Source: Thraustochytrium sp. TN22
Taxonomy: Eukaryota; Sar; Bigyra; Thraustochytrida; Thraustochytriidae
Assembly (NCBI GenBank): GCA_013306675.1
Contig: JABLUY010000134.1
Span: 29,473 to 93,472, forward strand
DNA length: 64,000 bases
Direction: 5' to 3'
This document shows, piece after piece, positions 7,327 through 32,444 of the stretch (position 1 is its first letter; every line of letters starts with the position of its first letter). The notes below the pieces were generated by a model that saw nothing but the letters and a program-made list of their open reading frames with translations, was not told the origin of the DNA and made no database searches. A program made the position numbers and the translations under genes.

Positions 7327-7334
7327 ACAAGTTC

Positions 7335-7685: not shown

Positions 7686-7724
7686 GTCTCATTTTCATAC
7701 TGCAAATGACTTGTTTGCGTATTC

Positions 7725-10700
7725 TTACTGCTTGTTGGCGTTGGGCTTGAGGGCGGCTGCCTCGCAAAGAACCTCCTCGGCCTGCTCGGCCTTGGCGTAG
7801 AGCTTGGCGCCGCGGCGGCGCACGTCCTTGAACCACTCGTCCTGGAACTCGAATTGGTGCTGGCCCTTGCCGTTCTTGGCGCTGCTCTTCTTCTTGCGCG
7901 CGATCTTGAGGTTGCTTTCCTTGACGTTGGCCTCAAAGTCGCCGTCGTCGTAGTCAATGTCATACGTGCGCACGATACGGCCCTTCTTGTCGGTCTTGGC
8001 GTTGACAGCCTTGACACGGCCGGCGTACCAGCTGTTGCCGCCGCGCCACTTGGCCTTGACGAGCTCGCCGACGATGTACTCCTTGGCGGGCCCGGGCGGC
8101 GCCGCGAGGTCGAGCGCGATGGCGGCCGACTTGTCGAGGTCACGGATCTGCTCCGCGAGGAGGAGACCCGGAGGCTTGCCCTTGCCGTCCGAGTCGAAGC
8201 CGGGCAGGCGCATGACGCCGTGCTCGTCCTCCCCAGCGGACCGCCAGAGCTTGGCCACGACGGCGTGGATGCGAGGGCCGTTGCGGAACGCCTCCAGCAC
8301 GGCCGCATCGCTGTCGACGATCTGCACCTGGATACCGACGCTGCGCATGTCCTTCATGATGATCTTGTCGTCCTTGGTGTCGGGCTGCGTCCGGAGCCAG
8401 ACGATGCGCTTGCCGGCGTCCTGCGCCAGCTGCTGCGCCTGCTCCTGGATCTCCTCCAGCGTGAGAGCGCGGTTGTGCAGGATGAGCCGCCGGATGGACC
8501 CACCACGCATGTCGCGCTGCTGGGCGCCGCCAAACACGGAGATCTGGTGCTGCAGCTCGATGTCCTCGCTGCTGAGGCCGGTGAACTCGCACGAGCTCAC
8601 GCCGTCAACGTAGGTGGTCATGCGTCGCTCGTTGCCATCCACCACCACGGTCACCACATGCCACTTGGCGGGCTTGACGGCGCCGTGCCACGGCTTGCTC
8701 GCATCGGCCTTTTCCTTCTCCTTCTTGTCATCGTCCTCGCTGTCGTCGTCCCTGCGGCTGGCGGACTTCGCCTTCTCGTCCTCGTCGTCCTCCTCCTCCT
8801 CCTCTGCGTCGTCATCATCCGAATCCATCGTCGTCTTGCTCCTGCTCGCTTGCTTCTGCTTCTGCTTCTTCTGCTTCTGTCGCTGCTTGGACGGCTCCTT
8901 CTCGGCGTCCTCGTCGTGGTCCTCGGCCCGGTCCTCCTCGGTGTCCGACTGGAAAAGGGAAAGCTCACTCTGGCCCTGATCCGGATCAGCCGGCGCGTCC
9001 GGAGGGAGAGAGAGATCCTCAAGCTCCTTCTTGGCCACCGCCTTCTTCATCTTGGTCGGCTTCTTCAGGTCCACTGCCTGCTCGGTGTCCAGCGCCTTCT
9101 CGTCTTCAGAGGGGTTGTCGGCCTTGCTGACCGTCGTCTCCTGGTCCTGGTCTTGGACAATTTCCTCCTCCTTCTTGGACACCTCGTTCTCCTCGTCGTC
9201 CTCCTCCTCCAGCTTGGGGAGTGCAGCGCTGCCGTTGGTGATGCGACCGTGCTCGTCCATGTACACGCTGGCCTTGCTGCGGCGGTGCTTGTTGCGGCCG
9301 CTGGCGACGGAGAACTTGGCGAGCGCGTGCTTGGCGCCCTTGGGCGGAAGACGCTCGACGCGCATGAGCATGGTGAAGGAGTACACGGACTTGACCGCCT
9401 TGTTCGCGTCGGCCGTGCCGGTCGCGCCAGCCGCGCCAGCCGCGGTAGTACGGCAGCTGTCGGTGATGGCGGTGGGCACCTGGAGGGACAAGGAGCCACC
9501 GCCGGCGCAGTTGAAGTAGGTGAGCTGCTTGGAAAGGTCCTCGCGCTCGCGCTTCCTGGCCTCAAGCGCGGTCGTGTGGCAGCGCGAGCAAATGTGGTAG
9601 CGGCACGAGTAGTGGGGACACTCGTAGCGCACGTTGCCGTGACTACCGCAGGCAACGCACTTGCGCCACGAGTACCAGGTGGTGCGCAGCTCGTGGCCCA
9701 GTCGGCACGTGGCCTTGGTCATGGACTCCGTGGCGCGCGGCGTCGTGTAGAGCGTGTGCTCTGGGACGAACTTTCCGTGGCCCGCATTGGTGGTGCGCAG
9801 AGGGCGCTCGTTGCTCACGAACGAGTACTCGCAGGCGAGCGCGCCCGAGGCCAGCGTGCGCAGGAGCGGGTTGGCGCCACCCTCGCGCGACTTGGACGCC
9901 TCGAGCTCCTCCTCGAAGACCTTGATGTCAAAGGCGCGGTTGTACGCCTCGCGGCGGATGCGCTCCTCCTCCTGGCGCTGCATCTCCTCGCGCGCGCGCT
10001 GCACCATGACCTCGCGGAGAATGTCGGCGCCATACGGTTCGACGAGCGGCTTGGCGTGCGGCAGCGCGCCGTCTGCCTGCAGCGTCTGCTCCACCGCGTC
10101 CTCGTCTCGCTCCTCGGCGGCCTGCGCGTCCTCCTCGCCGGCGAGGAAGACGATGTACTCCTTGTAGTCGATCATGCCATCGCGGTTGCGGTCGGCCACC
10201 TCGAACATGTCGATGACGTCGTTCGGGGTCAGGTTGGGCACGCCGAGCCAGCGCAGCGCGCCGTACCACTCAGCCGGGCTGAGCAGGCCGTTGTCGTCCG
10301 AATCGAAGGCGGTAAAGGCCTCCCACTCGGTGAGGCGCTTGCCGCGGATGGACTCGCGCACGAAGACGGCCTGCGCGCGCTGCTTGAAGGCGCACCATTC
10401 GTCCTGCACCGAGAAGATCTTGGCCAGGGGCGTCTCGGTCCACTTGCGGTCCATGCGCCGCTTGCAGCCCATGGTCTGCTGGAAGAACAGCTCGCGGGCG
10501 TGCATGGTGTTGCGCTGCAGCGCGCACAGCAGCACGTTCAGGTCCACCGCACGAAAGTGCATGTTGCAGTCCAGGAACCGCGCGCACGTGTGCGCGACGG
10601 CCGCCTGGAAGCTCGGCGCGCCGGTCTCGCACGAGACGCCGTCTGCGCCGCGCCACCGCCGCGAGGCGTCCAGGATAATGCCGTACTCGACGCGCGGCCT

Positions 10701-13700
10701 GTCACCGCGGCCCGTCGTGCTGCCGCCGCTGCTGCTGCTGCCGCCGCCGCCGCCGCCACCGCCCAGCCGCTTGGCTGCCGGCAGGGTCAGCGCCTCGTCC
10801 AGGCCGTCCAGGCTGCTGTTGCCATCGTCGTCGACGCCGGCCCCGCCGGCGGCCGCCGCCGCGGCCGCCGCCTCGGCCGCGACGGCGCCCTCCGCGGATC
10901 CCATGGTGGACAGCGGCGTGTAACGCAGCGCGATCTCCGTGTCGCTCCCGGTGATGACCACATCCTCGCGCGCCGCGCGCAGGTGCAGGATGCGGCGAAT
11001 GGTCTCGGCCTCGGCGAGCGAGACCACGACGTAGTTGCGGCCCTGCTCCACGGACCGCAGACGCCCGCGCGTGAGCAGGCGGCGCAGGCCGTCGAGCGTC
11101 AGGCTGCCACGCTCCGTGCCGTACTCGGAGATGACGTCCGCCACCTCGAGCTCCGAAAGGCGAATGTCCGTGGCCGCCCACACCGCCTGCATGACGTCCT
11201 CCGGCCCGAGCTCACCGGTGCGCACCGAGAGCAGCTCGTACGCCTTTTCCAGGGAACGCTGCGCCTCGCCCTGGATCGGGTGCATGGCGGCCGATTCCTC
11301 AGGACCCAGCGTGCGCACCTTGGCCGTCGAGGGCGCCCACTCGAGCACCATGATGACGTTCTTGACGCGCCGCAGGCCGTTCCACTGCGGGTTGAAGTAG
11401 TTGCGCGAAAAGTACATAAAGTCCGGGAACTCGAGCGGCTCCTGGTGGCGCAGCTTAAAGTCCGACAGCGGGTAGAACGGGTAGTCCTCGTCCGCCACCT
11501 TGCTCGTCTTGCCCCGCACGCGCTGCGGGTCGCGCGACAGCAGGCGGAACGGCCAGGCGCGGGGGTGCTCGTCGGCGCGCGAGTACTCGCGGTCGACGAA
11601 CTTCTCCACCTCAATCTGCTGCTCACGCTTGGCGCGCACCTCCTTCTCCTGCTCCTGCTCCTGCTCGCGCTCCTGCTCCGACTCCAGCTTCTGCGCCGAG
11701 GTCTCCTCGGACGAGCCCGAGTACAGCTTCACCTCGTGCAGGACGTCCATGCCGATCTTCGCCTCGGCCTCATTCATGATGAAGCCGCTGTGGTCCTCAA
11801 TCATGTTCTCCAGCCGCTTGCTAAACGGCAGCGGGTCCGGAACGTTGCCCTCCAAGGCAAAGTCCACGCTCTCGCGGAAGACGTCCAGCGCCTCGCGCGA
11901 GTCCTCCGCGCCCTCCAGCCGGTGCGCGTTCTCGCGCATGAGCTGCCGCAACGCGTTCTTGCGGTACACGTTGGAGACGTTCTGCATACAGAGCATGCTC
12001 CACTGCACCTGCTCGGACCGCATCGAGTTGATCACCAGCCACGCCACGATGTCCACCAGCGTGCGATCCTGCGTTGCGCTCGAGTACGACCCGCGCGCCA
12101 CGCCGGCCGCCACCAGCTCGCGCTTCATCAGCTCCTGCACCTCCGGGATGATGTAGGCGCAGATCGTCTGACCCTTGCCGATGCCGCGCATGCGAAAGGC
12201 GCCCTGCACGTAGTCGCGGAAGACCATGTCCTTGCCCAGCGTGATGACCGCGCGCGCGTTCACCACGTGCTTGATGTCCATGCCCGTGGTGTGGATCTGG
12301 TCGTAAAATGCGAACCGCCGCTCCAGCGGCACGCCGCACTGGTTCGCGCTGATGACGCGGCCCGTGGCGCGCACGAGGACCTGCTGCTTGTCGTCGTCGT
12401 CCAGGAAGACGACGCCATCGCACCACGTCAGCCCGAGGTCCAGCAGCTTGCGCGCCACCTGCTTGTTCGAGTAGCCCGTGATGAGGGCGCCCGTGTCGAT
12501 GAGCGCGTGGTAACGCGGCTCCTCGGCCTGCGCGATGCCCTTGAGCAGGTCCTCCACGTTCCAGTTCGACTTGATGTACTCGAAGCTGGTCGTGTCCGTG
12601 TCCAGCACCGTGCTCAGCATCTTGCCGTCGTCGCCCGTCTCGTAGTCGCACCGGCCCAGCTCCTTGGGCAGCAGGTCGCTCGGCGTACCACTAAAGCCGA
12701 CGCGGCGCCCAAAGAGCATCTCGCCGCCCACCGCCTGGCCGGACGCCGAGATCTTCACCTTTTGCGACCGCATGTGCGCCGGCAGCACCGTGTGGCTCAG
12801 GTAGTGGTGGATCACCAGCGGCTCGAACTTCCACAGCTTGTACAGCTTCTGCATCTGCTCCCGGTTGCTCTTTTGCAGGTACTTGAGCTGCACCACCTCC
12901 TTCTCCTCCGCCTCCATGCGTTCGCGCGCCGCCTCGGCCTCGGCCGCCGCGCCACCGTGGCCACCGTGGCCGCCGCCGCTCGCGCGCCGCGCGGTGCTGG
13001 CGGCGCCGCCAAAGTGCGAGCCGGCCACCGAGGCCGCGGCCGTCGCGGCCGGCGTCGCGCCGGCCAGGTCCCGCACGCCGCGCAGCGAGCCGCCCGACTC
13101 CGAGACCCACTGCTCGTAGCGCTGGCTCGACTTGCGCTCGCGCGCCGGCCCGATCTCGCGCGCGAACTCCGCCGTGATCTCATCCACCACCGTCTCAAAG
13201 TCCGACTCGCGCAGCCCGCTGTACCGGTAGCCCAGGATCGTGAGCCCGATGGTGATGTCCGGGTGCGCGAACTCCGAAGAGGAGCTCGGCACGTCCTTGC
13301 CCACGAACGGGACGGCTAGCTTCAGGCGCGACCGCGGCATCAGCGGGTCCTCCTGCAGCGCGCGCTTGCAGTCCTCGTCATTGAGCAGGCCAAACGACAC
13401 GCGGTTGATCTTGCCCAGGCAGTGCGGCAGAAACGTGCGCAGCCAGTCGCGCGTCAGGTTGAGCAGCTTCTTGTGCTGCGGCGACACGCGCGCCACAATC
13501 TTGGCCGCCAGGCTCTGCCGCTTGAGCGACCTGAGCGCCGCAGCCAGCGACCGGTACGCAGCCTCGGCCTCGGCCTCGTCCTGCTTGCTCGCGCCGCCGC
13601 TCTCGGCGCGCGCGAGCCACGCCAGCGCGCGCACCTGGCCACTGCCCAGCTGCCGCGGGTGCACATAGCTGTCCTCACCGCCCAGGTCCGCGTCCACCCG

Positions 13701-16700
13701 CTTCTTGGCATCCTCGCTTAGGAGGCCGCGCGGGATGCGCTGGATCGCCACCTTGGTGTTGGTGCGAACCTTGTCGAGCTCCGTCTGCAGCTTGTTACGG
13801 GCCGCCAGCACCTTCTCGCGAAAGCGCTGGCGCTCCTCCTCGTCCTCCTCGGTAATCTCGCCCTTTGCGAACTCCAGCGCCTCCAGCTTGCGCCGCAGCC
13901 ACTGCAGCTCACGCGAGCCCGCGGCGTTGGCCGCCGGGATGGACGGCGAAACGTCCTCGTCGTCCGCGCCGCCGCGCACCGCCTCGCCCTTCTTGTCGCC
14001 GCTGCCCGTGTCCAGCTTGCGGCCTTCCGCAGTGCGGCCCAGCGTCTCGCGCAAGAAGACAATGTCAGCATCGTCGGCGTCAGCCGCAAAGGCGACCGCC
14101 TCGTCGGCATCCTCCTTGTGCTCCTCGTCTTCCAGCTCGCGTTTCGCCTTGCCGGCGTCCTCGCGCTCGTAGTCCTGGATCTCCTCCACCACCTTGGCGA
14201 GGTCCTCGGCCGAGTCGATCACCGTCACGCCCATGGCCCAGAGCGCCATGCGCTCCTCCTCGTCAATGTGGCAGTGCGCCGCGAACACGAAGATGCGCTC
14301 CGCCGGGACCTTGAGCGAGCGTTCACCCTCAACCAGGTCGCTCACCAGGTCCAGCACCTCGTACACCTCCTCCGAGTCCTCCGGCGGAAAGGACCCGCGG
14401 CCGCCATTGCCAGCCGAGCAGGTGTGGCCCGAGTGGGAGCCCCAGTCCTTGTTGCAGCGCAGGCAGATGCTGTTGTGGTGGTTCTCGCAGTCCGGCCCGC
14501 AGCCCACGCGCGACTCGTCACCGCCAATGATGACGCAGCGCAGCTGCTTGGCGCCCAGGAGGTCCTTGGCGCGGCGCAGCGTCTCATCCTCCTCCTCGCA
14601 CCGCTTGATGGTCAGGCCCGACTCCTCGAACTTGGCGCACTGCGAGAGCACCGAGCCCTGGTGGACGGCGCGCCCGCCGCCGCGCTGCAGGTCAAAGGCC
14701 ACCGAGAGCCACACGATGATGTTGTTGTCCAGCGAGTCGTCGCGCGGGTACTGCGCCTCCTCGACGCGCTTCGACAGCTGCGCGATGCGCTGCTGCAACT
14801 GGCCCAGCAGCTCGCTGCTGCGCGAGATGTGCTCCACCAGCTCGGCCTCCGCGCCGTAGAGCTCCTCGGTGAGCGCGTACGCCTGGCGCGCCTGCGAGAC
14901 AAAGTCCGCCACGGCCTCCTTCGCCTCCGTCTCCTCGCTCGCCGCCTTCTCAGCGCCCTCCAGCATCACCTGCGCGTGCGACCGCGGCTCGCCGCCGTCC
15001 ACCACGAAGCGGATCGCCTCCGCGTGGTCGATGCCGTGCAGATGGTGCTTCTGCAGCCACAGGTAGGCCCACTCCGCCATGATGGGCCGCAGCTCGCGCT
15101 GGTAAAAGTCCAGGTTGAGCAGCGTGATGTGCGGCAGCTGCTGCAGGGCGCGGCACGCGTAGCCCTGCTCGATGGCCGCGCTGAGCCGCTTGAGAATGTC
15201 CAGCGCCTGGCCGCGCTGCTCGAAGGTCGACACCTTGCCGCGCTCCGTGTAGAAGATGGCGTCCAGCAGGTGCGTCGGCAGGCTCCAGCGCTCGCCCTGC
15301 TGCGAGCAGTCAAGGTCGAACTTCTCCCCCATGGGGAAGTTGAGCTCGCTCTTGAGCGGGTGCAGAATGAGATCCACCTCGTCCAGCAGAATGGACCCGC
15401 GCCGGAAGATGGCCAGAATCTTCTGTAGCTCGGCCGCCTGCTCGTCCAGCGAGAGCGTCTTCCCGCTGTCCTTCTCGCCCTTGCCGGTATCGCCCTTCTT
15501 GCTGTCCGGCTCGTTCTGCGCGGCCTCCGCCTTCTTGCGGTCCGCCGCGCCGCGCACGGGCGCCTCGCCGGCCGCGGCCGCGGCCGTGCGCAGACTCATG
15601 CCCTGCTCCTTGGCCACGGTGATCTTGTTGAGCGTCTCCACGTAGGCCAGCATGACGCTCTTGACCGTGGTAGGCGTCGCCACCACGATGCCGCGGTTGC
15701 GCACCGCGTTCTCCAGGCCCTGCCGCATCGACGGGTGCACCGTGGTGCTGCGGTCGAACTGCAGCGTGTAGATGCGCTTCTGCATGATGGTCGCGAAGGT
15801 CTCGCGCATGCGCGTCCGTGACATCTCGAGCAGCGCCTTGGGCACCACGCTCATGACCAGGCTCTCGCCGTCCGCCAGCATGAGCGCCAACAGCGGCGCC
15901 ACCACGGTCGTCTTGCCGGCGCCCATGATCATCTGCTTCACCTTGCTCACGTCGCGCTCCAGGTTGCCCATGAACATGTCGACGATCTCCACCTGCTTGC
16001 GCCGAAGCAGCAGGTTCCAGGTAAACTCGAAGAGCAAGAAGCGCGGGTCAAAGCCCAGGCCGTCCTCGCGGATGAAGTGCCGGCCGTCCGCGAGCGCCTC
16101 GCCCAGCGACTCGCTCATCTGCGAAATGGACAGCACCAGCTCGTGCGCGCGCCGCGTGCGCTCCGCAGGCGTCAGCTCCAGGAGCGACCGCAGCTTGGCG
16201 CGCAGCCGGATGCTCAGCCCGATGCACCGGCTCGCGTGGCCCACGCGGTTTGCGCGCAGCAGAACCACCGTCACCACCTTCAGCAGCGTGCGCACGCGCT
16301 CCGTCGACAGGTACGGGTTGAGCCGCTGGATGTCCTCCACGGCGCTCGTCGACAGCAGCGCGCCAAAGAGAAACTCGACCCAGATGTAGGTCTCCTGGCC
16401 CGACTCGCGCCGCAGCAGGTGCACGATCTTCTCCGTCTTGGCCTCGCCGCTGCGGCGTCCCAGCTGGATGTGGTTCGCCGCCTCCGTCAGCAGCGGCAGC
16501 ATGCGCTCCACCACCGTCGCGTCGCGCTCGCGCAGCGCGCGCAGGTCCGCCAGCAGCGCCGAGATGCCCTCGAGCGCCGCCTCGATGGCCGCCGGATCGC
16601 CGTCCGGCGTGCAAAAGGCCGCCAGCGTCTTGCGCGGCAGCGCCTTGAGTCCCACCGACTGCTTTGCGTTCGCCGATGACGACCACGACTTGACATCGTC

Positions 16701-19158
16701 CTCCATGCGCCGCAGCATCGACTTGGCCACCGCGTTGCCCGCCGCCTCGTGCGCGTTCACCTTGAACGGGATCTCGTCGTTCACCTCCGCCAGGCCCAGC
16801 TCGCTGCGCGTCGACCACAAGAGGTACTTTTGCACCGCCGCCAGCGGCGCCGTGGCCAGCACGCGCAGCTCCTCCTCGTCCGTGCCCAGGTCCACCTCCG
16901 CCGCCTCGCCGGCCGCCTCGTCCGTCGCGCCCGCCTCGTCGCCGTCGCGCGTGCGATCTTGCTCCTCGCGGAAGCGGTCCACGGCCGTGCGCTCGTCCTC
17001 CGTGAGCATTTCGCGAACGGTCGCCTCCAGCGTCGCCGGCATATCCTCGCTCATGCCCGTCAGCGTGGCCAGGCAGTGGTCCGGCGTCGCGCCGCCGCGG
17101 AAGATCTTGACCACCGGCAGCTTGTGGATGTCAAAGAGGTTGCCCAGCATGTCGCACTCATCCACGTCGACGCGCAGGAACCGAACGCCTGGCGTGCTGC
17201 GGCTCAACGAGAGCACCGTGGGCGACAGCGCCTTGCAAGGCTGGCACCACTCCGCGTGGAACTGGACCACCACCAGGCGGCCCGCCTGGGCGAGCGCCTC
17301 CATGACGCGCTCGAAGTGGTCCTCGTCCTCCACGTCCAGGGGAGCCTCCACGCGGAAGCGCACCTCGGCCGCCGCCGTCAGGCGCAGACCCACCGTCGAC
17401 GCCAGCTCCGCAATCTCCGCGTTCGACACGGGCTCCAGCACGCGCTTGGAGCACGACAGGTTCGTCAGCTCCGGCCGGCGAAACGGCCGCCCGTCCGGCG
17501 TCTGCAGCGCCGTGGAGCGCTGCAGGGCGTACTCCTTCGGCGGCGCCTCCAGCTCCGGGTGCGGCGGCGGCGGCGGGAACTGCATGGCGCCACGCTTGCG
17601 CTTGAGCGCCTGCAGCGAGGGCACCACCTGGGACATGAGGTCCGCCAGCGGCGACCGCATCTCGCGCTCGTCCGTCCAGCCGTTGAACACCTTGGACCGC
17701 TTGAACTTGCGCGTGTCCTTGAACTCCGGCATGCGCGAGCAAAGCTGCCGGTTCTGGATCAGCACGTTCACAATCGACGCCGGCACCGACTTGAGCCGCC
17801 GGTCCTTGTACAGCTGCGCCAGGAGCGTCGCGAACCGGTGCGAGTCCGACTTGCCCGCGGCCGACGAGCCCCAGTCGCCCCAGCCGCCAAAGCCGCCAAA
17901 GCCGCCGAAGCCACCAAAGCCACCAAAGCCGCCGAAGCCGCCAAAGCCGAAGCCGCCAAAGCCGCCGCCAGCCACACGGCAACGCAGCTTGCCTTGCAGG
18001 AGCCCATACAGGAACAGAAATCCGTACCCGCACTTGCGCCCGTCCATCGTCTCGCCGCGCGCCCAGACGCGCTCCAGAACGTCCAGGGCCGACTGCCCGT
18101 ACAGCGTCATGGGCGGGTCGTAATTGAGGCTCAGCGTCTCCCAGCCCGCCGTGATGCCCTTGCCCACCACCTGCCGGCGCACGCGCATCTTGTCCCCGCT
18201 CGACCCGCTGCGCATCTGCTCGCCCACCTCCTGCGCGGCCGCGTTGTCGGCCTTGCGGAAGCGCACCAGCATGCGCTCGCCGTCCAGGGTCAGCTCGCAC
18301 TCCTTGGCACCGGCGCGCCGTGCGCGCTCCAGCTTCTCCGCTGCTTCTGTCTCATAGCGAATCCAGCGGCTGTCCGTCTGGTACATCCACACGCACCTCC
18401 GGATCGGCACCTTGTTCGCATCATCGCGCTTTGCGCCGCCGTCGCCATCCTTCTTGCCCTTTTTGGTACCGCCGCGCCGCTTGCGCGTCGCGCCCTCCTC
18501 GGACCCGGACTCGCCCTCCTCCTCGTCGTCGTCATTTTCCTCGCTGTCACCGTCCGGCTCATCCTCGTCCTCGTCCATTTCAGACTCCTCCGACTCGGAC
18601 TCCTCCGATCCGGACTCCTCCGATCCGGACCCGGACGAGGCCGACTTGCGCTCCGCGCCATCGCCGTCACCGTCCTCGCCAGAGCCCCGCTTCCCACCGC
18701 CGGCCGCGCCGCTCGCCTCGGCTTCCAGCGTGTGCTCCGTGACCAGACTTACGGACGGCTCCGCCGACTGCATCTTGAGCAGGTCGTCCGCGCGCGCCGC
18801 CAGCTTCTGCAGCTTCTCTGTGTTGCACGCCTTGAGTGTCGCCAGATCCAGGCCGGTCTGCAGCGAGAGCGCCTTGAGCAGTGCCTTGCGCTCCTCGTCG
18901 TCTTCCTCCTCTTCCTCCTCCTCGTCCTGATCTTCTTCCTCCTCCTCCTCCTCGTCGTCGTCCTCGCCCGGCTCCTGCTTCTTCTTCTTCTTCTCCTCCT
19001 TCTCCGGCTCGGTCTCTTCACTGCCCTTCTCCTTGGCGGCCTTCTTGACCTTCTTGGTCGCCTTGGTCTCCTTCTTCTCCTTGGCGCCATCGTCGGCGTC
19101 CGCCGCCTTGGCCTCCTGCTCCCCTCCATCCTCGTCCCCGTCCTTCGCTGCCTGCTGC

Positions 19159-19202
<44 letters not shown>

Positions 19203-22200
19203 CTGGGGTACGTCGAAAGGAGCCAACGAGACGCACGGGTACACGACGTGGGCGCCAAGGATGTTAAAGACACCCTTGACCTCGCAGTCCAGCGCCACCC
19301 CGTCAATTTGGAAAGTGAGCACGCCTTCTTCGCGGTCAGTGTCGAGGACGCACGTGATGCGAGAGCCCTTGCCCCACAGACCAACCGCCTCGCCCTGCGT
19401 CAGGCGTGCCATCGTGCCCAGAATGCCCTGGGCCTGTGCGAGCACGGGGAGGAGCTCGTCGTCACCCTTGCGCCGCTTGATGCGCCGCACCGAACGACCG
19501 CCGGGGCTCGGCTTGCCATCCTCCTCCTCCTCCTCAACGTCCTTGAAGGCGTTCACGAGCTTCTGCCGCGTCTTGAACATGCTCAAGCCAAGCTTGCGCC
19601 AGTCTTGATGCGTGAGCGCCTTGACGCGCTTAAATGACTTGATGCCCAGCTCCTTGAACTTGTCGAAGTAGTGCTCCATTTTAATCTGAAGAAACACTGA
19701 CCGAATCTCGTCCAGCTCGTCTGGTTCCTCCTCGGCGTCCTCCTCGGCCTCGGGAACATCCTCAGCCTTCTCGACCTCCGCCTCGGCCTCGGCCTCGTCC
19801 TCGGCAGCCGTGCCCTCCTCCTCGCCGTCCACGCCGTCCGTCTTGTTGTCGGTCTCCTCGTCACCAGCAGCCCCGCTCCCGCCGGCCTTGTCCGCAGGCG
19901 GCTCCTGCGTCGCGCGCAGACGCGAGCCCAGGTCCACGAGCGGCTTGCCGCGATGGAAGAGCTTGCCGTTCGCGTAAAGGGCCAGGCTGGAGGAGTCGGC
20001 GGCGTTGCCCATGAGCGGCGCGGGGCCCGGCCCGAACTCCTCAAAGTTCTCCGAGCAAAGGCCGACTGCGTCGCCCTCACCGTTGCGCGAAGGCTCGTGC
20101 ATCCAGTCCAGGGACCACTCGTGCACCCCACTAAAGGGCACAAAGCCCACCGTGCCGCGAATGCCCTCGTTGTCCTTGCCACGCCGCTCCTCCATCATCT
20201 GGCGCTTGTAGCGCTCACGGTACTCGCGCTCGCGGCGCAGCTGCTCGTCGCGCATCTTGCGCTCTGGGGAGGGCTCCGGCTCGCCCGGTACCGGCACGCG
20301 CGCGCCCACGCGAATCACCTGAATGTACTCGCGCGGGTCCTGGAGACGGCCGCGAAAGGTCGACACCTTGTAGTCGTCGATCTGCACGTTGCCGTCAGAC
20401 CAGATCTCCATCTTGCGCCCGCCGTTGCGCCCGCGCTCCAGCGTCAGCGTAGACCCGCGGTACAGGTCGCCCGCCAGGTACATGAGCTCCAGCTTCTTGT
20501 TCTGGTCCGGCGGAAGCTTGGTCCAGTTGCGCCCGTCGTACTCGTTCGACCACTCCCACGAGGCGTCCGAGCCGTCCATGTCCTCGGCGCGAAGGGTCGC
20601 CTGCATGCCGAGGTTCTCGAGCTGCAGCGACTGACCGCCGGACTCATCGTCCCACGTCCACTGCAGGTCCTCGTCGTCAAAGTCGCTCTCATCGTTGTCC
20701 GAGTCAAGCTGCGCCAGCTGTAGCTCTAGGGCGCGCTTGGCATTGGCGCTGCCCGAGCCCTCGGCGCCGGCGCCGCTCTCGCCAGCGCCGCCGTCCGAGC
20801 TGCCACGCCGGCGGCCGCCCTTGCCCCTGCGGCCGCCCTTGCCCTTGCCCTTGGAGGTCTTGCCCGCCGCGTCCTTGCCGGCGTCTGCCTCGCCTGCGCC
20901 GTCCTCGTCGCCATCCGCCTCGAACTTGCCCAGCGTAATGCGCAGACGCTCGCGCGTGACGCGCCGCTCGGACCGCAGCACCTCGGCATAGGCTGCCTCG
21001 TCGGCGGGGGTGACATGCTCCCTGAGCGCACTCACGAGAGACTCAGAGATGCGCTCCTCGACCGCGATGCGGGCGTCCGTGATCTCCTCGCCACCGCGCA
21101 AAATGACAAAGGTCGGGAAGGACTTGATCTTGAGGTCGCGCGCCAGTGTGCCGAGCTCCAGCGAGTCGGCGCGGACGCTCACAAAGGCGCAGCTGGGGAA
21201 GACGGGCGCCACCTCCGCCACGCTCTGCATCGCCTTGACGCACGAGGGCTTCCACAGCACGTGGAAGCAGGCCACGACAAGCCAGCCGCCCTCGGGCGCC
21301 TCCACGGACGGGAACTCGATCCCGGCCAGGAGCGGGTCGCGGTCCGCCTCGGCGTCGTCCTCATCGAGGCCGAGCGCGCGCGCGCGCACCGCGTGCTCCA
21401 CGCCGCCCACGCGCAACACGTCCCAGTGCTCCACGTCCTTGACGATGCTCACCTCCTGGTACGTCTCGCCGAAGACCGTCTTGTCCACGTAGTACGGCCA
21501 GCTCGTCGACGGCCCGCGCGGCGGCACCCAGCACTGCGCGTACACCGTGTCGGCAGCGTGCTTGGCGGCGGTCGCCGCCGCCAAAGACGCCTTTTCCTCC
21601 GTCTCCATTTTCTCCTCCGTGACGGTGATGGCCACGGTGACGCCAGCGGCGCCGTCCTGGGCGCCGCCCTCCTCGAGGCGGCCAAACTGCGCCTTGAGCG
21701 CGTGCTGGCGGTTCTTGACGAGCGTCATGATGTAGTCCGTGTGAATCGAGTCCACGTAGAACTTGTGCTTCTTGTCGGTGATGATGAAGCGCTCGGTCTG
21801 CAGAATCTGCAGCTCCTCCTCCAGCGACACACGGCAGCTCGCGCTCACGTGCGGCAGCTTGACCGCATACCGCGCGCACTGCGTGGTGAGGTCCCACGGC
21901 AGCAGGACGCCAGCGCTGAGCGTGACGAGCGAGATCTTGAGCCGGCACGCGTGCGCGTCCGGGTGCCAGTCGTCATTGGCGTTCTCAAAGTAGTTGAAGA
22001 TGGTCTCCGCTGTCTCGCCCAGGTGCGTGTCGGTGGCCACCGAGTCCGTGAGCCGGAACACCTGATCGTAGTCGCGATGCAAAAAGCGCAGCAGCATCAG
22101 GTACATGGCCGACTCCAGGCCGCGCGTCTCCAAAAAGGAGAGTGACACGTGCACCGGGTACAAAAAGTACCGCTGCGAGATGCTCGTGTTCCACACGCCG

Positions 22201-25200
22201 TTGTCGCGCTCCAGCACGAGCGCCGTGGAAAAGGGCTGCGAGCGCACCACGGGCCGCACGACCGCCACCAGCGGCACGAGCACCTGCAGCTCGCCCTGCG
22301 TGTTGCTCATGAGCAGCGAATGCGGGATGCCGCGCAGCATGCGGCTCGTCGAGGCGTCGCGGTCGTTGCACACGTACAGGTCGGCGTGGTCCATGCTGTA
22401 CATGCGCAGTTCGCCGTCAAAGTCCTCACGCACCGTGAAGGCCAGCTTCAGCCGCGGCAACTCCACCAGGTCGATGGGCGCGCAGCCGCGGAGCGGCAGC
22501 GTCGGCGCGACGCTGGCACCGTAGCGAAGCGCCATCTCGTGCTCCCAGACCGCCAGGTTCGACTTCTTGGTCCACGCACACATGTGCGAGAGGTTCTCGA
22601 TGCGGGTCAGCGTCTTGGCCACCGAGAAGAGCCGCGACCCGCGCGGCGCGTACAGCAGGTTCAGCATGACCATGGCGGACGCCTCCAGGTCCGGAACGGC
22701 AGCCGCGCTCGCCGGGCCCTCCTCGCCGCCCGTCTTGGTCTCCACGGCCAGCAGCTCGCCCGAGCCCGCCTCCAACTCGCGCGTCTCCGCGGCCTTCGCC
22801 TCCAGCTTCTCCAGCTCGGCGCGCGGCACGCGCTGGCCGTCCGGCCCGAGCGCAAAGGCGGCATGGTCGGCGCGCGCGGCCTTGACGGCCAGCGCGAGCG
22901 ACTCCACGTCCGGGAAGCTCACACCCGGGACGCTCGAGATGCGGTACAGGAGGTCCATGCACAGGTTCGGGTCGCGGTCCGCGGCCTCCAGCACGAGGTC
23001 CAGCACGAGGAACTGCTGAAAGGAGAGCGAGGCGCGGCTCCGGTTGCCGTCGTCCTCCTCTCCGCCCTCGCCCTCGCTGGCGTCTTCCGTCTTCTTGGTC
23101 TTCTTCTTCTTGGTGCGCACCACCTTGGCCTTCTTGGTCTTCTTGGCCTTGGCGTTGAGCAACAGACCGTCGTCATCCTCATCGTCCTGGCCCGCGCCCG
23201 CAGCACCCTCCTCCTCCTCCTCCTCATCATCATCATCCGAGTCGTCGCTGGCCGAGTCCCAGTCCGCGTCCTCCTCGTCGCTCATGCCTTCCCAATGCCA
23301 CACATCGTCGCCGCGGTCCATGGCACGCGGGCGCGTCTTGTGCAGGTCCCTGCCCTCAACACGCTCCAGCACCATGCCAGCGCTGGCGCCACGCATGCCC
23401 TTGACGTCATAGGTGCTGTCCGGGTTGCGCGCGAGGATGACCACGTCCACAAAGCGGCCGCGCTTCACCATGAATTTGACCTGGTCGCCAACGTTGAGCT
23501 CGTACTGGTGGCCCGACGGGTTCACGTCGTAATCCGTGCCCAGCAGGTTGCTGCCCTCCTCGGTGAGCGCGGAGGTACCGGCGAGCGCGCTGATAGCGGC
23601 ACCCGCCGCCAGCTTGGCGGCCGCGGCGTTCTTGCTCTTGGCCTTGCTCTTGGACATCTTCTTGATGCGGTCAGCCGCCTTGCGCTGGCGGCGCTCGAGG
23701 TGAGCGCGCGTCTTGGCCTCGAACGGGTCGTTGGACCTGTCCTTGATGAGGTCCAGCGTCTCCAGGAGGAGCGCCACGTTCTGCTTGTCCTGAAAGCGCT
23801 TCGCGTACGCCGCCTTGTCATAGCGCGTGATGCGCATCACGGCGCCAGGCAAGCCGCCGAGCGCCTCAATGCCCGTGTCGCTGGCGGCGCCCGCCTCCCC
23901 GGGCTTGCGGCGCATAATTTCCAGCCAGGAGCCGATGCCCTGAGCCTCCGCCACGATGATGTGCTCGCCATCCTCGTCCTTGGGGTAGCCGCGCAGCATC
24001 TGCACGACGCGGTAGCCCTCTCGCGCCTGCTCCTGCGCGCGGCGCGCCGCCTTGGCGGCCCACGGCTTGGGCGGGCCGCCGGCGCCCGGTTCGCCCTGGT
24101 CCTGACCCCGTGCCCCGCCCAGGTCCGTCGGGGCCTCGTCCGCCGCGGCCTCGCCCCGGAACAGGTTGTTGGGCACGCGGACCGGCTCCGAGGTGTTCCA
24201 GGACTCGTCGAACCAGAACTGGTAGGCGTCCAGCAGGCACTGCGGCAGCGCGCCAAAGAGGAGGCGCGACGGCACGTAGGTCTCGCGGCCGCCGCTGAGG
24301 TTCTCCTTGTGACCCGCCTCGCGCACGATGACGACGGAGCGCTCGGGCGAGCTGATGTAGCGATCGCCCTGCACGCGGTTCATGAGGCAATCCGTCATGC
24401 CGTTCGGGTACGGCACGCCGGCGCCCTGCTCCCACCACTTCGGGTTCGGCTTGTTGCGCGGATCCGGGCTGCACTGGAGCTCGCGCAGGCTGAAGCGCAC
24501 GTCGGTGGTCAGGTGCAGCGAGTACCACCACTGGCGGCCGTGCGAGAGGCACTCATACACGTGAACGCAGCGCAGGCGGCGGAAGAGGTAGACGAGCTTG
24601 AAGGGCCCGCCCATGTGCTGGTGCAGGCCGAGCAAGACGGCCACCTCGGCGTCCTCCGGCAGCGCCCACTCGGGCATGAGAAAGTGCATGGCGGGCGGCT
24701 GCGGCCCGTCAAAGAAGCTGCGGCGCACCGGCTCAAAGAGGAAGGGGATCCAGCTCTCCGACGGGAAGAGCTCGGCCGGGTCGTAGTCGCGCTCCCACTC
24801 GTCGCCCAGCGGCGGGCACTCCTGGTGCGCCGACACCCAGTGCTCGATGTCGTGCTGCAGGCCGACGAGTCGGTAGCGGTCGCGGTGCTCCGCGCGCTCG
24901 AGCAGCGAGACCTGGAGCGTGCCGTTGCCGAAGAGGTCCTTCATGTCCGGGTGGTTGCTGATCTCGGTGCGCAGCGCGCTCAGGTGACGGCTGCGCAGCG
25001 TCATTTGGCCGATCTGCAGGTCCATCTCCACGCCGAACATCTCCTGGTCCGAAATCTCGTCCACCTGGTTGTTGAAGGACTTCTCGCGCAGGAGATGGAT
25101 GCGCGAGGGCGAGGCGCCGGACCGGCCCGGCGTGCTGCCGTCGTCCGAGGTGGCGGCGTCGCCGTCATCACCGCCGCTCCCGCCCTCGCCCGGCGGCGGC

Positions 25201-28200
25201 GTGACGTTGCCCGTCGCGCTCCCCTCGGCCGGCCCGGTCATGCGCGTCGACGAGACCGCGTAGCGGCCGACGCTGCGCAGGCCGGCGATGCGGCTCCAGC
25301 GGTTGGGCGCCGAGAGGAAGTCGTCCGTGGACCCGAGGCTGCCGCTCGTGCTGGTGGACACCTGCAGCGCGTACTGCATGACGCGGTCGAGCTGGCCCTG
25401 GCGAAGGTGGCGGCACCAGTTGACCAGCGTGCGGCGCTGCACCTGGAGCACCTCGTAGAGTTCGAACTCCGGAATGAGCAGACGACCGTGCTCGCGCTGC
25501 TGGCGGTTCCACGTGTGCCGCGTGGTGAGGTAGATGAAGCTGCCGATGAGCGTCTGCGCGACGCGCACCTTCATGTCCTCCTCCGAAATGTTGCGGCACA
25601 TGAGCAGGAGGTGCGCATGCAGGTCGCAAGCAAGCCGCGAGTTGCGCCGGATGAGCTCCTCGTCGGTCGGGTCCTTGCGCGTCTGGTCGTCTAGCTTCTG
25701 CAGGTAGTCGCGGAAGAGGTCCGTGAGCGCGCCCTGCAGCAGACCGCGCACCTGGATCATGCCCTCCTCGAGCTTGCTCACGCACTCGGCGCTCAGCGAG
25801 GTGTCGCGGAGCGCACTGGCGGCGCCCGGGTCCGCCGAGGCGCGGGCGCGCCGCACGAGAAAGGACAGGTAGTTCTCCATGCGCGACGCGAGGCGCGCCG
25901 TGAAGAGGATGATCTGCACGCTCGTGTTGAAGTCCTCGGCGCCAATGTCGCAGACCGACCCGGTGTCGAGCGCCAGCGCGTCGCGGATGAGCGCCAGCGT
26001 GGCGCGCAGCACCGTGTCTGGGCTCGAGCAGAGCTCGTTGATGAAGGCGCCGTACGGCGTGGCCAGCAGCTCCTTGTACGGCGTCGGCACGAGCACGGGC
26101 TCCACGCCGCGCAGCTTGAGCGAGAGGTACCGGCCGGGCTCGAAGACCACCGAGTCCAAAATGTCGCGCAGGCGCTCGCTCTGCAGCTTGTGCAGGCGGT
26201 CGTCGCTGGCGAAGAACGTGAGCACCAGCGGCAGGCGAATGTACGGCACAGTCAGGTAGGAGAGGAGGAGCTCTGAGTCGTGCTGGCCGAGCACCTGCGT
26301 CTTGGTCGTCGTGGTGCCCCCGCCCCGCTTGGTGCCCGGCGTGCCGGAGCCTGGCTCGTCATCGTCGTCGCCGCCGCCACCGCGGCCGCGCGCAGCGCGC
26401 CGTGCCGCGGCCGACACCTTGATTTGGTCGTCCTCGGTGGGCGCCGTGTGCTGCTCAAAGGTCTCCTCAAAGGCCGGCAGGCTCGGGCGGTAGATGATGT
26501 CATCCTCCGTGTACACGGGCGGGTCGCTCAGGTAGAACGAGGGCGTCGCCGTGGACGGGAAGCGGTGCTTGGGCGGCTGGTGCTCCTTCTCGTGCGAGAC
26601 GCCGGCGTGGTTGACGTCTGGGAAGGGGCGGCAGCGCAGCTGGCGGTTCTGGAAGGCGCGCACCTCGTACGAGAAGGTGTCGCTGTGCCAGCGCCAGTTG
26701 AGCTGCGCCATCATGCGGTCCTGGCGGCCTACGTCGCGGCCCTCGCGGCCCGCGTAGTTGGGGAAGGCCGTGATGTCCGGGTTGAGGAAGTACTTCCACA
26801 TGAAGGTGATGTCGCGGAACGCCTCGAGCTCAGGGAAGTTCTTGAGCAGGCGCGAGGACTTGGGCGACTGGTCCAGCAGCAGCAGGTGAACGGCGTTGGC
26901 CTCGGTGGCCGCCACCTCGCGGCACACGTTGCGCAGGTAGCGGATGAGCGAGGGGTTGGGCTTGACGTCAGGCGCCGACTCCCAGGTAAAGATCTTGAAG
27001 AGGCGGCGCTGCGCCGGGCTCTCAAAGTAGTCCAGCACCGCGGCACGCGCCACGTTGAGCTCCGGCGTGTGCACCTCGATGGTCTCGGTCTGGTCCGCAA
27101 AGGTGGACACGCTGAGACCAAAGCCCGGCACGCCCAGCTGACGCCCGCTGCGCGTCTGGCCCATGAGGTGCGTGCAGACCTCCGAGGGCGTGTCGTAGGC
27201 GCGCTGCCGCATGACACAGTCCGCAACGGCGGCGATGCAGCCGGGCACGATCAGGCAGACGGCGTCCAGCGGCCGGCACTGCTGGAGCGAGAAGGCCGCG
27301 GCCGCAAAGTGCTCCATGAGCCGCTGCAGCGTCAGCAGAAGCTCCACCTGGAGCGCGTAGTCGATCGGCTCGCAGTCCCAGATGCACGAGCGCGACGCAG
27401 CGGCCGCCTCTGCGCGCTTGCCGTTCTCCAGGCTCGGCCGCAGGTTCTCCGGCTTGACTGCCTCGGCGTCAGCCTCGGACTCGGCCTTGGCCTCGGCGTC
27501 TTCGGCCTCGGCGTCATCGCCTGCCTTCTTCTTCTCCATGGCCTCAGCCTTGCTGGTGAGCGAGGCGACGAGCGCCTTGAGCGCCGTCTCGAGGCGCGCG
27601 TAGAACCGCGTCGTGACGCGCACGCGCTCCTCCTTGGACCGGTGCACGCGGGGCGCGAAGATGCTGCGCACAGCGGAACGCGGCACCTTGTCCTCCGTGT
27701 CGCCGTCATCGTAGACGACAAAGAAGGTGCCGTTGTCGTTGAGGCGCGCCACCGTGCCCGAATACCAGATGCCGAACTCGCCGGCGAAGCGCACCCGCAC
27801 GCGCTGGCCGAGGCCGGGCTGAAAGCGGTCGTCGTCCAGAAAGTCCACCGTAAGCTCGTCCGCCTCCGAGGCGCCCTGGGCCTCCACCTCGGCGAGAGCC
27901 GCCTTCTTTTCTGCGGGCAGCGCCTCCAGGAGTTCCTTGGCGCGGCCCAAGTCGGCGCTGCGCAGGTTCTCCACCTCGAGCTTCTTGGCAAGCTCCGCCT
28001 CAATGTTGGTGCTATCCAGCTCATCGTCCAGGCCGGCGTCCTCGTCGTCCTCGTCGGAGTCGGAGCCCGCCTTGCGCGGGGCAAAGGCGTCGTCGTCCTG
28101 GTTCTCCTGCGCGTCGCGCTGACGGCGGTGGCGCCGGCTCACATACTCACCAATGTCCGAGTCCCACTCCTCGGAGCCGCCGCTCGAGTTGGACGCCTCA

Positions 28201-31200
28201 TTCCAGTCCGAGTCCGAGTCGCGGTCGTCGTCCGCGGCGGCCGCCGTGGCGGCAGCAGCGGCAGCGGCGTCGGAGCCCTTGTCCTTCTTCGTCTTGCCGT
28301 CTTCGTCCGCGCCGGCCTCCTCGCCCTCCTCCAGGCGACGTACCTGCTCCGCGATGGCCTTGGCCTCCTTGCGCTGGCGGCGCTTCTGGCGCCGGTAGGC
28401 GCGCTCGGAGCGGCGCTTGGAGAGCGCGTCGCGCGGCTCGTCACGCGGCGCCGGCAGTGGGATGAGCTGCGTCATGACGTACTGGATGAGGTTGAGGATG
28501 AGCAGCTTCTCGTTCTTGATGCAATGCGTCTGGTTGTCCAGGAGCGAGCAGAGCTTGTCGGTCATGCGCAGCGTGTCGACGGCCTCGGCGCGGCTGAGGA
28601 TGCGCTCGGGGAGCTGGCAAAAGTCCAACGCCACGTACTTCTTCAGCGCCGACGCCTGGCCCGGGTTGGGTACGTTCATGGACACGGACCACACGGGCAT
28701 GTCGCAAAACTGGACCATCTGGCGCACGCGCTCGCGGGCGTCCTCGGGCGACTCGGTCGCCGTCGCGCCTTCGCCCGCGGCGGTCGTCTTGTCGGAGAGC
28801 GCGGACTTGCGCTTGGCCTTGGACTCGGACGCCGCGTCGGGGCCCTCCTTGCCGATGACCTTGGTCACGGCCAGGTGGACCACCTTGCCGGAGGACGTCA
28901 GCTTGTAGTCGGCGAGCGACTTGGACGGGTCCAACATCTTGCCTAGGAAGATGAGGCGCTGCTTGTCCTGCGGCACGCCGGCGGCATTCTCCACGTGCGC
29001 AAAGAGCTGCGACACCAGGCCGGTGCTATCAATGACAAACTCGAACGGAAGCCGGTCGCGCCGCGGCAGCGTGTGCTTGACCTTGACGGTGATGGCGTTC
29101 GCGTCGCCGGCCTTGATGGTCGGCACCGCCGTCGCCGTCGCCGTCACCGTCGCCGGCGCGGGCCGGCTCGTCTCCGGCGAGCCACTGGCTTCCGCCTCGG
29201 CGCCCGTGGCAGGCGTTTGCGCAGGCGCGGAAGCGGCGGATGCGCCAGCGGATGCGCCGGCGTTGGCGCTGGCAGCCGGCGGCGCCTCGAAGCGCGGCTT
29301 GCTGAGCTCCAGGAGTGCGGGGAGCTCCACGGAGTCGTCCTCGCAGGCCTTGACCTTATCCAGCACACGGAACGCGAGGCGCTTGCACTCCTCGAGCATG
29401 AGCTGACGGCAGGCCTCGGCGCGGCGGCGGCGCTTGGCGTGGCGGCGCGCAGTGGCCTCAGCCTCGGTCTCTGCGGCGGGCGGCGTCGGGTCCAGGGCGT
29501 CGCCGGCCTCATCGCCCTGCGCCTGCGCCTGCGCCTTCGCCGCCTCCTCGTCGTCCTCGTCGTCCTCGTCATCCTCCGCCTCGCGGGCGGTCCGATCCTC
29601 GCCGCCTTCGTTGTCAGCGGCGGCCGCCTCGTCGCGCAGCTTGTCGGCGAGCTTGACGGTCGCGTAGGCGAGCTGCGAGCAGGCCATGCGGCAGACGCGC
29701 ACGCCATTCTCGTTCGGGTGCACAAAGTCCATGTCGTTGGCGATCATCTTGACGAACTGCGCACGGATGGCGAGCGTGACGAGCTTGGCACGCAGCTCGC
29801 CGAGGCCCTTCTCACGCAGCACAAAGTGCAGCGCCTCGAGCAGACAGCGCACGTACGCGGTGTGCGAGCGCTGCGGCGAGCGATAGGCGCCGGCGCCGCC
29901 GTTGCCGGCGTTGTGGTCGGCCTGCATCTCGGCCTCGACGAGCGAGGTCTCGAGCGGCTTGCCGGTGAGAAAGGGCAGGAGGATGTCGTAGAAGCGCTCC
30001 GTGTCGCGCTTGTGGGTGTGGATGGACAGGTTGTAGACGGCGAGCCAGAAGACGTTGTCGAGCGCGTTCTTCTTGGGCACATTGTTGAGCACCATGCAGG
30101 TGCGGTACTTGAGCTTGGGCGGGCCAGCGACCGGCGAGACGGCGTGGTAGCGCAGGCCGTTGAGCGGGTCGGTGTTGACCACGACGAAGCGAAAGCGCTG
30201 GTCCTCGGTGCGCGTCATGACGATGACGAGCTCGCAGTTGTCGACCAGCACAGGCAGGATGATGGTGTCCCCGACTTCGAGATCGCCGAGGACCGAACGC
30301 AGCTTGCGCAGAAAGGCCATCAGCTGCGTCTTGTTGCGGTGGCGCAGCAGCTTGATCATCTGGCGCATCATCACGCCGCTGCGCGAGAAGATGAAGGCGG
30401 CGTCGCTGAGCGAGCCGCGCTCCGACCGCGAGAGCGCGCCCAAAAAGGGCGCCATCTCGTGCAGCGCGCGCGAGAGCGTGTAGTTGAGCACCGTATAGGA
30501 CCAACTGAGCAGGCTGGAGGCCTCGAGCGCCGTACCCTCGATGTAGGCGTCGCCGAAGGTGCCCGTCAGCGCCGGCGCCGTCCACACCGGTCGCGGCTTG
30601 GGGAAGAGCACAGCAAGGCTGAGGCCCTTGCGCTGCTCATTGACCTCATCCTTGCGCTCCTCCTCGTACATGGAGATGAGCTTGTCGCGTGCGCGCTGCT
30701 CGCGCACCATGCGGCTGTCGGCGAAGCTGGCGTCCACCCGCACGTGGCGCACCGCGATGTGGCCCGGCATCATGCTGTGGTTCTTGGAGGAGAAGAGGTA
30801 GAGCGCGTCCGGGTCGATGGCGAAGCGACCGTCCTTGAGCACCTCCTCGTGAGAGAAACTGGCGCACGGCACCGAGTCCACCCAGGTGCGCACCTGGCCC
30901 TTGCCCTCCTCGTCGCCGCAGCTCACGGCGACGACAATGCGCGTCCAGCGGCCCTTCTTCACCTTGGCCTTGGTCACGTCGCCGTACGACCCGAGGATGC
31001 CCACGCCGCCCTCGCTGTTCACCATGCACTCGCCATCCGACTGCTTGACGCGCTTCTTCCCGGTACGCTGGTTCTCCTCCACGTGCACGAGGCGCGTCTG
31101 GAAGAGCGACAGCCCGTTGCGGGGCGGCTCGTACTCGAACTTGACGTCCATGGTGATGGTGTACTGGTTCACGTACGTCTTGAACATGGACCCGAAGCCG

Positions 31201-32444
31201 CCAAAGCCGCCGAAGCCGCCAAAGCCCGTGTCCGTGCCGGTGCCGCCCGTCATGAAGGCGCTGTCGTCCCAGCGGACGCCACCTCGGCCACCGCCGCCAC
31301 CGCCGCCGCCGCCGCCGCCGCCCATCATGACGATGGAGCCATCGTCCGAGTCGCGGCCGAGATCGTCATCGTCGTCGTCGTCGAGCCCGCCGAAGAGGTC
31401 ATCGGCGCCCACCATGACGTCGTCATCGTCGCTGTCGCTGTCGCGCAGGCCGCCGCGCCGCTCCTCCGCAGCCTCGGCCTCAGCCTTGGCCACAGCGGCC
31501 TCCACGGCCGCGAGATCGGCGCCGGCGCGACGCGCCGCCTCGCGCGCCATGGCGGCCTGCCGCTTCAGCCCGCGCTTGTGCAGCGCCTCGCGGCGCTTCG
31601 CCTCCTTGCGCGTGCGCGCGCGCGCCTTGGAGCTCGCGCCATACGACGTCAGGCCCTCCAGGTCCAGCTTGAGCCGCTGCCCGGGCAGCAGCACGAGCGC
31701 CGTGCTATGGTCCTTGAGCGTCTCGAAGCTTGCCGTCTGCGGCGCCAGGTTGAAGAGCGGGTCGTCCAGCGCGCGATCGTCCGCGACGACCGCCGTGCCA
31801 GCCGCGGCCGCCCCGGCCGCCGATGAGGCCGCGCCCATGCCATCCTTGGCCGCTGAGGCGCCCATGCTGCCGCCGCCGCTCGGGCCGACCGGGCCCATGA
31901 CACTGCCGCCCCACGGCCCCACCGGCCCGTGCATGACCTCGTGCTGCGAGTCAGCCGCGCTCATGGCGGCGCTCGCGTAGCTCGTGCCCATGCTGGTGCC
32001 GGTGCCGGTGCCCGCTTCGCGCGTGCCGCCGCCAGCCGTGTTCCCGGACATGGAGCTGTACATGCCGCCGAGCGCGGCCCACGGGTCGTCCGCGACGGCA
32101 TTGCCGGTTCCGCTCGAGGCCGCAGCGCGCGTCTCCTGCGCGTGCTGCTCGGCCTTCTTGATGAGCTCCTCGGCCTTCTTCTCGTCGATCAGTTCACAGC
32201 CCTCGGGCCAGCGCGACGGCCCGCGCCGAAAGTCAAAGGTCGCCGAGTACACCTTGGAGTCCTTGGTGTTCTTGCGCTGCGCGCGGCCCAGCGTGCGCCG
32301 GCCCACCTTGCGCCGGCCATCATCATCCGAGCCGTCCTCCTCCTCCTCCTTGGCGTCGCCCGGCTCCTCCCAGAGCACGTCCTGCGCCAGGTTATCATAG
32401 TCCTCCTCATGGTTCTGCACCTCCGTCACAAACGGCGTCGACAT
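7725..32444 (-). CDS. giant 8,239-residue multidomain protein with DUF3638/DUF3645-like P-loop core
   Basis: One uninterrupted 24.7 kb frame encodes ~0.9 MDa. Regions seen, in order with rough residues: acidic N-terminus and poly-Gly; LamG-like fold 418-565; conserved globular block 618-826; ubiquitin-like domain 1117-1197; Tudor-like domain 1541-1590; second Tudor-like region ~2981-3038; thioredoxin-like fold 3720-3790 with WKPSC; SPRY-like region 4095-4410 containing a SAM-like insert 4242-4305; poly-Gln ~4414-4431; WWE 4682-4755; GGF repeats ~4823-4853; thioredoxin domain 5052-5130 with WCQPC. The core has Walker A (MGAGKTT, ~5506), a DEVD box (~5688), a Cys/His cluster (~5980-6009), a DUF3645-like block (~6395) and a helicase-like QGAFRMRGIGKG motif (~6750). 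Two EF-hands follow (7379-7434), then a ZZ-like zinc cluster (7579-7623), a split LamG (7684-7995) and a final Tudor-like domain (8124-8185). Relatives of the DUF3638/DUF3645 core are large fungal and protist proteins often labelled ubiquitin thioesterase-like; their function is poorly known. A role in ubiquitin signalling is inference. The start is uncertain: the frame stays open ~36 Arg/Glu-rich codons upstream of this ATG without another ATG. Confidence 0.88.
19152..19206 (-). repeat. CAG-type triplet run encoding poly-Gln in the giant gene
   Basis: About 18 consecutive CAG/CAA codons (read on the minus strand) follow the SPRY-like region and precede a long Lys/Glu-rich linker. The mix of CAG and CAA suggests an interrupted, fairly stable repeat. 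Confidence 0.85.

Follow-up and report, generated by a model that had tools for sequence, protein, structure and literature searches.

A giant gene of the DUF3638/DUF3645 family in Thraustochytrium sp. TN22 and its probable superfamily 2-type motor core

The DUF3638/DUF3645 proteins form a family that is already known and is uncharacterised. In the portions of the sources that were available, DUF3638 is described as a domain widespread among eukaryotic proteins with an undefined mechanism (PMC12615304), by abundance its genes fall into the top five expanded groups of Hypomyces (PMC6627653), lineage-specific genes tabulated for A. oryzae include it (PMC6237848), and a figure legend on large microsporidian gene families names it (PMC5423893). 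A full-text literature search, the reach of which excludes most subscription papers, gave no function for the family in the text accessible to it, no paper citing any of the four accession numbers tried and no protein with the set of domains described below. The subject of this article is a member of the family encoded by Thraustochytrium sp. TN22, in a 64,000-nucleotide stretch of contig JABLUY010000134.1 (positions 29,473 to 93,472) that we refer to as the window. Its gene, at window positions 7725..32444 on the minus strand, holds an open frame of 8,239 codons, and its giant combination of domains is a new form of this family.

Two other kinds of protein are useful for comparison. SecA carries a preprotein cross-linking domain, which clamps the protein substrate, between its motifs II and III, and the giant motor proteins of the RNF213 type combine an AAA+ core with E3 fingers. 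For the window protein we consider it rather probable, judging from the sequence, that a single giant polypeptide of the DUF3638/DUF3645 family contains a two-domain ATPase motor of the superfamily 2 (SF2) type, with adaptors that recruit targets for remodelling. The conserved centre (~residues 5460-6870) would be the motor, in which DUF3638 would form the first RecA-like domain with motifs I, Ia and II, a long insert with DUF3645 would separate motifs II and III, and a second RecA-like domain, absent from the Pfam models, would carry motifs V and VI. The adaptors would recruit the target, a modified protein or nucleoprotein, and the motor would remodel or unfold it with ATP.

Membership of the family is clear. 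The protein was scanned with Pfam as three overlapping pieces spanning all residues, at an expectation value (E) of up to 1, and some regions were rescanned as tiles. DUF3638 (PF12340) matches residues 5463-5720 (15285..16058; this and all further features of the gene lie on the minus strand) with E 8.5e-29 in the whole-protein scan and 1.1e-31 on a tile, where it scores 110.4 bits against a cut-off of 31. DUF3645 (PF12359) lies downstream at residues 6370-6402 (13239..13337; E 5.4e-14, 51.7 bits against a cut-off of 25). The window protein thus resembles the family in having the two domains above cut-off and in the same order, and its core is common to the two relatives described next. An original prediction, made from the letters alone, had proposed this resemblance and had named profile searches and a search for homologues as its checks; both models score above cut-off, and both relatives contain both domains.

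The relatives came from metagenome-assembled genomes (MAGs). A DNA pattern of the EFAHPD type, which represents the DUF3645 motif, occurs at six loci in the genome_contigs collection, and two of the six genomes concerned also contain DUF3638. Neither this pattern nor one of the GFSGTP type matched anything in viral_contigs, back-translated patterns revealed no relatives in genome_contigs or viral_contigs, the core of one locus (L005) had no tblastn match in plasmids or phages, and a core profile run against 51 other genomes of the phylum of G003 at E up to 0.1 found no further relative (1/52, G003 itself). L005 lies on PABI01000099.1, in a MAG titled Anaerolineaceae, and its 9,947-base contig, L012, consists of a single open frame (3,315 codons) that runs off both ends. 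We take L012 to be a eukaryotic contaminant, because of 400 genomes of that phylum DUF3638 exceeds its cut-off in this one alone. Seven BLASTP blocks align its frame collinearly with window residues 2596-6868, and a weak eighth extends the match to residue 6888 (E 0.015). Identity is 43%, 60% and 54% in the three core blocks, the last figure applying to the region of the putative second motor domain (residues 6515-6868, E 1.2e-110). Two further shared blocks lie well upstream, at residues 2596-2780 (24105..24659; E 5.9e-28, 38% identity) and 3236-3588 (21681..22739; E 4.8e-66, 45% identity), and the second of these matches no Pfam family at E up to 10. The other relative, L003, is found in a MAG titled Deltaproteobacteria as a DUF3638 gene split over several frames, presumably an intron-containing gene from a fungal contaminant. 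Its pieces match DUF3638 (E 9.4e-62) and DUF3645 (E 3.2e-17), and its upstream frame has no counterpart of the blocks shared upstream of the core (residues 2500-3600). Only DUF3638 and DUF3645 score above cut-off in L012 and the L003 pieces, both of which are incomplete sequences.

What surrounds the core differs between these proteins. Window residues 3589-4867 correspond to only ~120 residues in L012, and thioredoxin, WWE and SAM models find no match there at E up to 1, while DUF3638 and DUF3645 are present; the window protein therefore has SAM, WWE and thioredoxin as extra domains within the stretch that L012 covers. L012 stops short of the parts that would carry the ubiquitin-like (UBL), EF-hand and laminin G-like (LamG) domains, and the comparison applies to the covered stretch. 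It follows that thioredoxin, WWE and SAM would not be needed for whatever the family core does, and these modules, as far as the sequences go, vary around a conserved putative motor. L012 in turn has ~940 residues of its own directly after the motor region (its residues ~2281-3225), in which no Pfam model passes its cut-off; the window protein has next to nothing at this place. The difference depends on the weak last block.

Several lines of evidence point to an SF2-type core. Motifs I and II fall together in the first domain, as GAGKTT at residue 5508 and DEVD at residue 5688 in the window protein and as GGGKTT and DEVD in L012; in L003 motif II reads DESD, and motif I is cut by the end of the frame. 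The putative second motor domain, at residues 6575-6800 (12045..12722), was delimited by GFSGT at 6583, HTTGMDIK at 6718 and RMRGIG at 6751 and by conservation in L012. The DUF3638 model was also run against the phylum to which G001 (a MAG titled Flavobacteriales) belongs. Of 296 genomes from that phylum, 148 gave matches at E up to 0.1, none of them over the cut-off; 5 of the 14 genomes used as controls matched as well. Motif reading of the best 20 loci found P-loop helicase motifs in 16 and left four unrecognised; the 16 are presumably ten RecG-like, two PriA-like, one Mfd-like, one HsdR-like and two superfamily 1-like proteins. Of 400 genomes of the phylum of G005, two matched at E up to 0.001, one through the contaminant and the other through a RecG-like protein. 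A three-row profile of the core was also aligned by hhalign with SF2 families and with ClpX, using reversed controls. RecG aligned over the P-loop region, in register, at E 0.0033, and its two reversed controls gave 0.4 and 0.44; HsdR gave 0.023 at GFTGTP, against 0.42 and 0.46. The best match of the first domain among sequences of the PDB is HamB (E 0.28), in register at motifs I, Ia and TPE, and the Pfam model ResIII finds the same domain below its cut-off (E 0.039).

A number of observations weigh against an SF2 assignment. All of the SF2 matches are weak, with an hhalign probability of at most 9.8% and the PDB match at E 0.28. Dozens of sub-threshold rows in the scan of G001's phylum align only from profile position 100 onwards, which is outside the P-loop region, and many of them come from frames of ~190-330 codons; the motif reading covered the best 20 loci only. 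The hhalign comparison with SecA gave E 0.066 and 0.08, at DEVD and GEGKT, no better than reversed SecA at 0.078. ClpX scored 0.64 with the forward core and 0.021 with the reversed core, so that the hhalign scale is noisy and its numbers are rough. The rows of the compared families are the longest frame at each locus, a few of which may be neighbouring genes (SecA row L065 has no SecA motif, and one ClpX row has 684 residues). The putative second motor domain matched no Pfam family and no PDB sequence at E up to 10; in AlphaFold models built on the three-row alignment the mean predicted local distance difference test score was 33.8 (core) and 46.2 (putative second domain), and Foldseek found nothing at E up to 0.001 for the low-confidence model of the latter. 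The likeness to SF2 helicases is thus weak but repeated, and the core is probably of the SF2 type. The nucleoside triphosphatase core named in the original prediction is strengthened by the SF2-like motifs and the recurring matches, weak as each of these is.

In the core, 895 residues separate motif II from motif III in the window protein; L012 has 411 residues there and L003 has 315, and in each case the DUF3645 motif falls within this interval. In SecA the distance is 269-316 residues in 22 of 24 rows, the other two having no motif by the patterns used and locus L049 having been left out beforehand. The window protein is like SecA in its DEVD motif II, in a motif III of the form GFSGT/GMTGT and in the long insert between them. 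It is unlike SecA in that the profile match is no better than the reversed controls, in that the insert is different and in that this is a giant eukaryotic protein; no SecA model of NCBIfam matches it at E up to 1. The order of parts resembles SecA, as read from the sequences, and membership of the SecA family is not supported. It is a more speculative and rather unlikely extension that DUF3638-DUF3645 represents an unrecognised eukaryotic SF2 protein translocase with a SecA-type layout, the giant form of which would act as an unfoldase, its UBL, WWE and SPRY domains choosing modified clients and its thioredoxin and EF-hand domains adding redox and calcium control. The likeness to RNF213 would lie in the giant polypeptide and in an ATPase joined to ubiquitin-related parts. 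The two would be set apart by the SF2-looking core seen here and by the lack of any E3 domain above cut-off.

An alternative that we regard as possible, if doubtful, is a nucleic-acid helicase or sensor, in which the SF2 core would travel along foreign RNA or DNA in the manner of antiviral helicases, with the remaining domains serving as effectors or scaffolds. The proteins to which the core is weakly matched are nucleic-acid helicases of the RecG, PriA, Mfd and HsdR types and HamB, which we take to be a phage-defence helicase; the P-loop region is in register with all of them and motif Ia also with RecG and HamB. The expanded or lineage-specific DUF3638 genes that appear in the available parts of the reports on Hypomyces, A. 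oryzae and microsporidia could fit a role in conflict. All of these matches are weak, however, and the long insert is unlike the spacing in the measurable rows of RecG (25-26 residues in 5 of 11) and HsdR (39-43 residues in 2 of 11), the remaining rows being without a motif by the patterns used. SAM domains bind RNA in some proteins, and besides SAM no nucleic-acid-binding domain scores above the Pfam cut-off, the Tudor-like pieces falling below it.

The original prediction, which had claimed a single frame of 8,239 residues over 7725-32444, was right about the frame and needs correction as to its strand. The frame is real: 8,239 codons and a stop run from an ATG to a single stop on the minus strand, and the plus strand of the same interval is not open, with stops in that reading. 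Sequences simulated from the window with a first-order Markov model (100 runs) had a longest open frame of 480 codons on average and of 707 at most. Guanine-plus-cytosine (GC) content by codon position is uniform over the frame, at 0.58-0.74, 0.33-0.55 and 0.83-0.97 for the first, second and third positions (28 bins of 300 codons, the final one shorter), and nucleotide identity to L012 is higher at codon positions 1 and 2 than at position 3 in five of five aligned blocks. The competing view, that several genes or exons lie within one long GC-rich frame, draws on the further long frames that such DNA carries, including one of 1,821 codons on the strand opposite the giant frame. Long opposite-strand frames are not unusual in GC-rich coding DNA, and for this reason length by itself is no argument for the giant frame. 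The uniform codon-position GC, the simulations and L012, whose one open frame is collinear with residues 2596-6868 so that at least this stretch is one gene, make the view very unlikely; towards the ends of the frame, at residues 1-2595 and 6889-8239, it is codon statistics and domains alone that speak against it. The gene, which the original prediction called intron-free, appears to encode a single protein of ~8,200 amino acids in a single-celled eukaryote. Just 3' of its stop, at window positions 7355-7671, there are three copies of a degenerate repeat of ~120 bases.

The domains listed in the original prediction hold up in large part. DUF3638, DUF3645, ubiquitin, WWE, SAM_2, thioredoxin, EF-hand and Laminin_G_3 score above the Pfam cut-off in the whole protein; SPRY, the Tudor-like pieces, a degenerate thioredoxin and a concanavalin-like N-terminal region stay below it, and the proposed zinc region has no Pfam match. 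From the N-terminus, a tentative concanavalin- or LamG-like region was delimited by eye at ~residues 425-585 (30690..31172), with a Polysacc_lyase match over 490-526 (E 2.1e-4, below cut-off). It is followed by the UBL domain at residues 1133-1194 (28863..29048; PF00240, E 9.1e-9), a Tudor-like piece at 1546-1585 (27690..27809; PF21743, E 9.3e-5, below cut-off) and a degenerate thioredoxin fold at ~3715-3810 (21015..21302; PF00085, E 3.4e-4 on a tile, below cut-off). A SAM domain at residues 4253-4303 (19536..19688; PF07647, E 1.2e-4, above cut-off) appears to be nested inside a SPRY domain, because the SPRY-like halves on either side, at 4091-4174 (19923..20174) and 4348-4411 (19212..19403; E 0.041 unjoined), match once joined without the stretch between them (model positions 2-109 of 121, E 3.3e-5, 24.4 bits, just below the cut-off of 26.3). 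The WWE domain is at residues 4685-4757 (18174..18392; PF02825, E 6.2e-8, above cut-off). Inspection by eye had suggested another WWE-like region at 3935-4064, which was dropped because Pfam gave it no WWE support. A Gly/Phe/Trp-rich repeat occupies residues 4826-4860 (17865..17969), ahead of the block at residues 4868-4937 that is shared with L012; in L012 a comparable stretch comes behind that block. The second thioredoxin fold, at residues 5049-5123 (17076..17300; PF00085, E 2.1e-16 on a tile), is the only one of the two to keep the CxxC active site (WCQPC), the first (WKPSC) being without one cysteine.

Within the insert between motifs II and III there is a tentative Cys/His-rich IBR-like motif at residues 5976-6009 (14418..14519; E 0.033, below cut-off), where the alignment with L012 has a gap. 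Two PADLOC matches, DrmD (E 3.9e-4, residues 5833-5917, in the part of the insert missing from the relative) and Cas12c (E 0.0068, residues 5716-5783, in the core), were set aside as chance or composition by judgement alone. Beyond the core lie a pair of EF-hands at residues 7375-7434 (10143..10322; PF13499, E 3.6e-7, and PF00036, E 1.4e-7, above cut-off), a Cys/His-rich motif seen by eye at 7577-7625 (9570..9716), which is the zinc region without a Pfam match, a C-terminal LamG domain at 7922-8000 (8445..8681; PF13385, E 1.7e-6, or 1.3e-7 on a tile, above cut-off) and a Tudor-like piece at 8119-8179 (7908..8090; PF09465, E 7.7e-4, below cut-off). The SAM-in-SPRY arrangement, WWE and thioredoxin, which vary between relatives, together with the UBL, Tudor-like, LamG and EF-hand domains, would be the adaptors around the motor, and the quality-control role that the original prediction had proposed, with sensing of ubiquitin, ADP-ribose, redox state and calcium, is a possible inference from them. 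That the protein might itself be a deubiquitinase or a ubiquitin ligase, as could be read from its UBL and WWE domains, its weak IBR-like signal and the name ubiquitinyl hydrolase 1 that some DUF3638 proteins presumably carry in databases, is highly improbable, since no E3 ligase, deubiquitinase or peptidase family (OTU, UCH, USP, RING and HECT included) matches the whole protein at E up to 1 in Pfam and the IBR match, at E 0.033 only, is in a segment missing from L012.

Elsewhere in the window, neighbouring frames match Ssl1 (a TFIIH subunit), Rit1, SPX, RGS and protein kinase families and by this mark the DNA as eukaryotic, and a tRNA scan and Rfam at gathering scores returned nothing across it. 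One frame at 38515-40527 on the minus strand has three cyclic-nucleotide-binding stretches and an RGS domain, to our knowledge an unusual pairing in one protein. On the plus strand, a single frame at 45962-48835 matches Methyltransf_16 and Rit1_C and may be a fusion that joins a lysine methyltransferase-like domain to a tRNA-modifying one, and an open-ended frame of 1,838 codons at 58485-63998, with no Pfam family above cut-off, starts within the 2-kb step where the GC content of the window peaks (58001-60000). Two tandem copies of a 105-base unit, matching at 97%, are found at 42069-42280.

For the DUF3638/DUF3645 family, an SF2 motor with a SecA-like insert offers a concrete biochemical hypothesis for DUF3638 that can be put to the test. 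The giant form in Thraustochytrium sp. TN22 shows which adaptor modules evolution joins to what would be the DUF3638/DUF3645 motor, and it suggests that this neglected family is worth testing in the laboratory.

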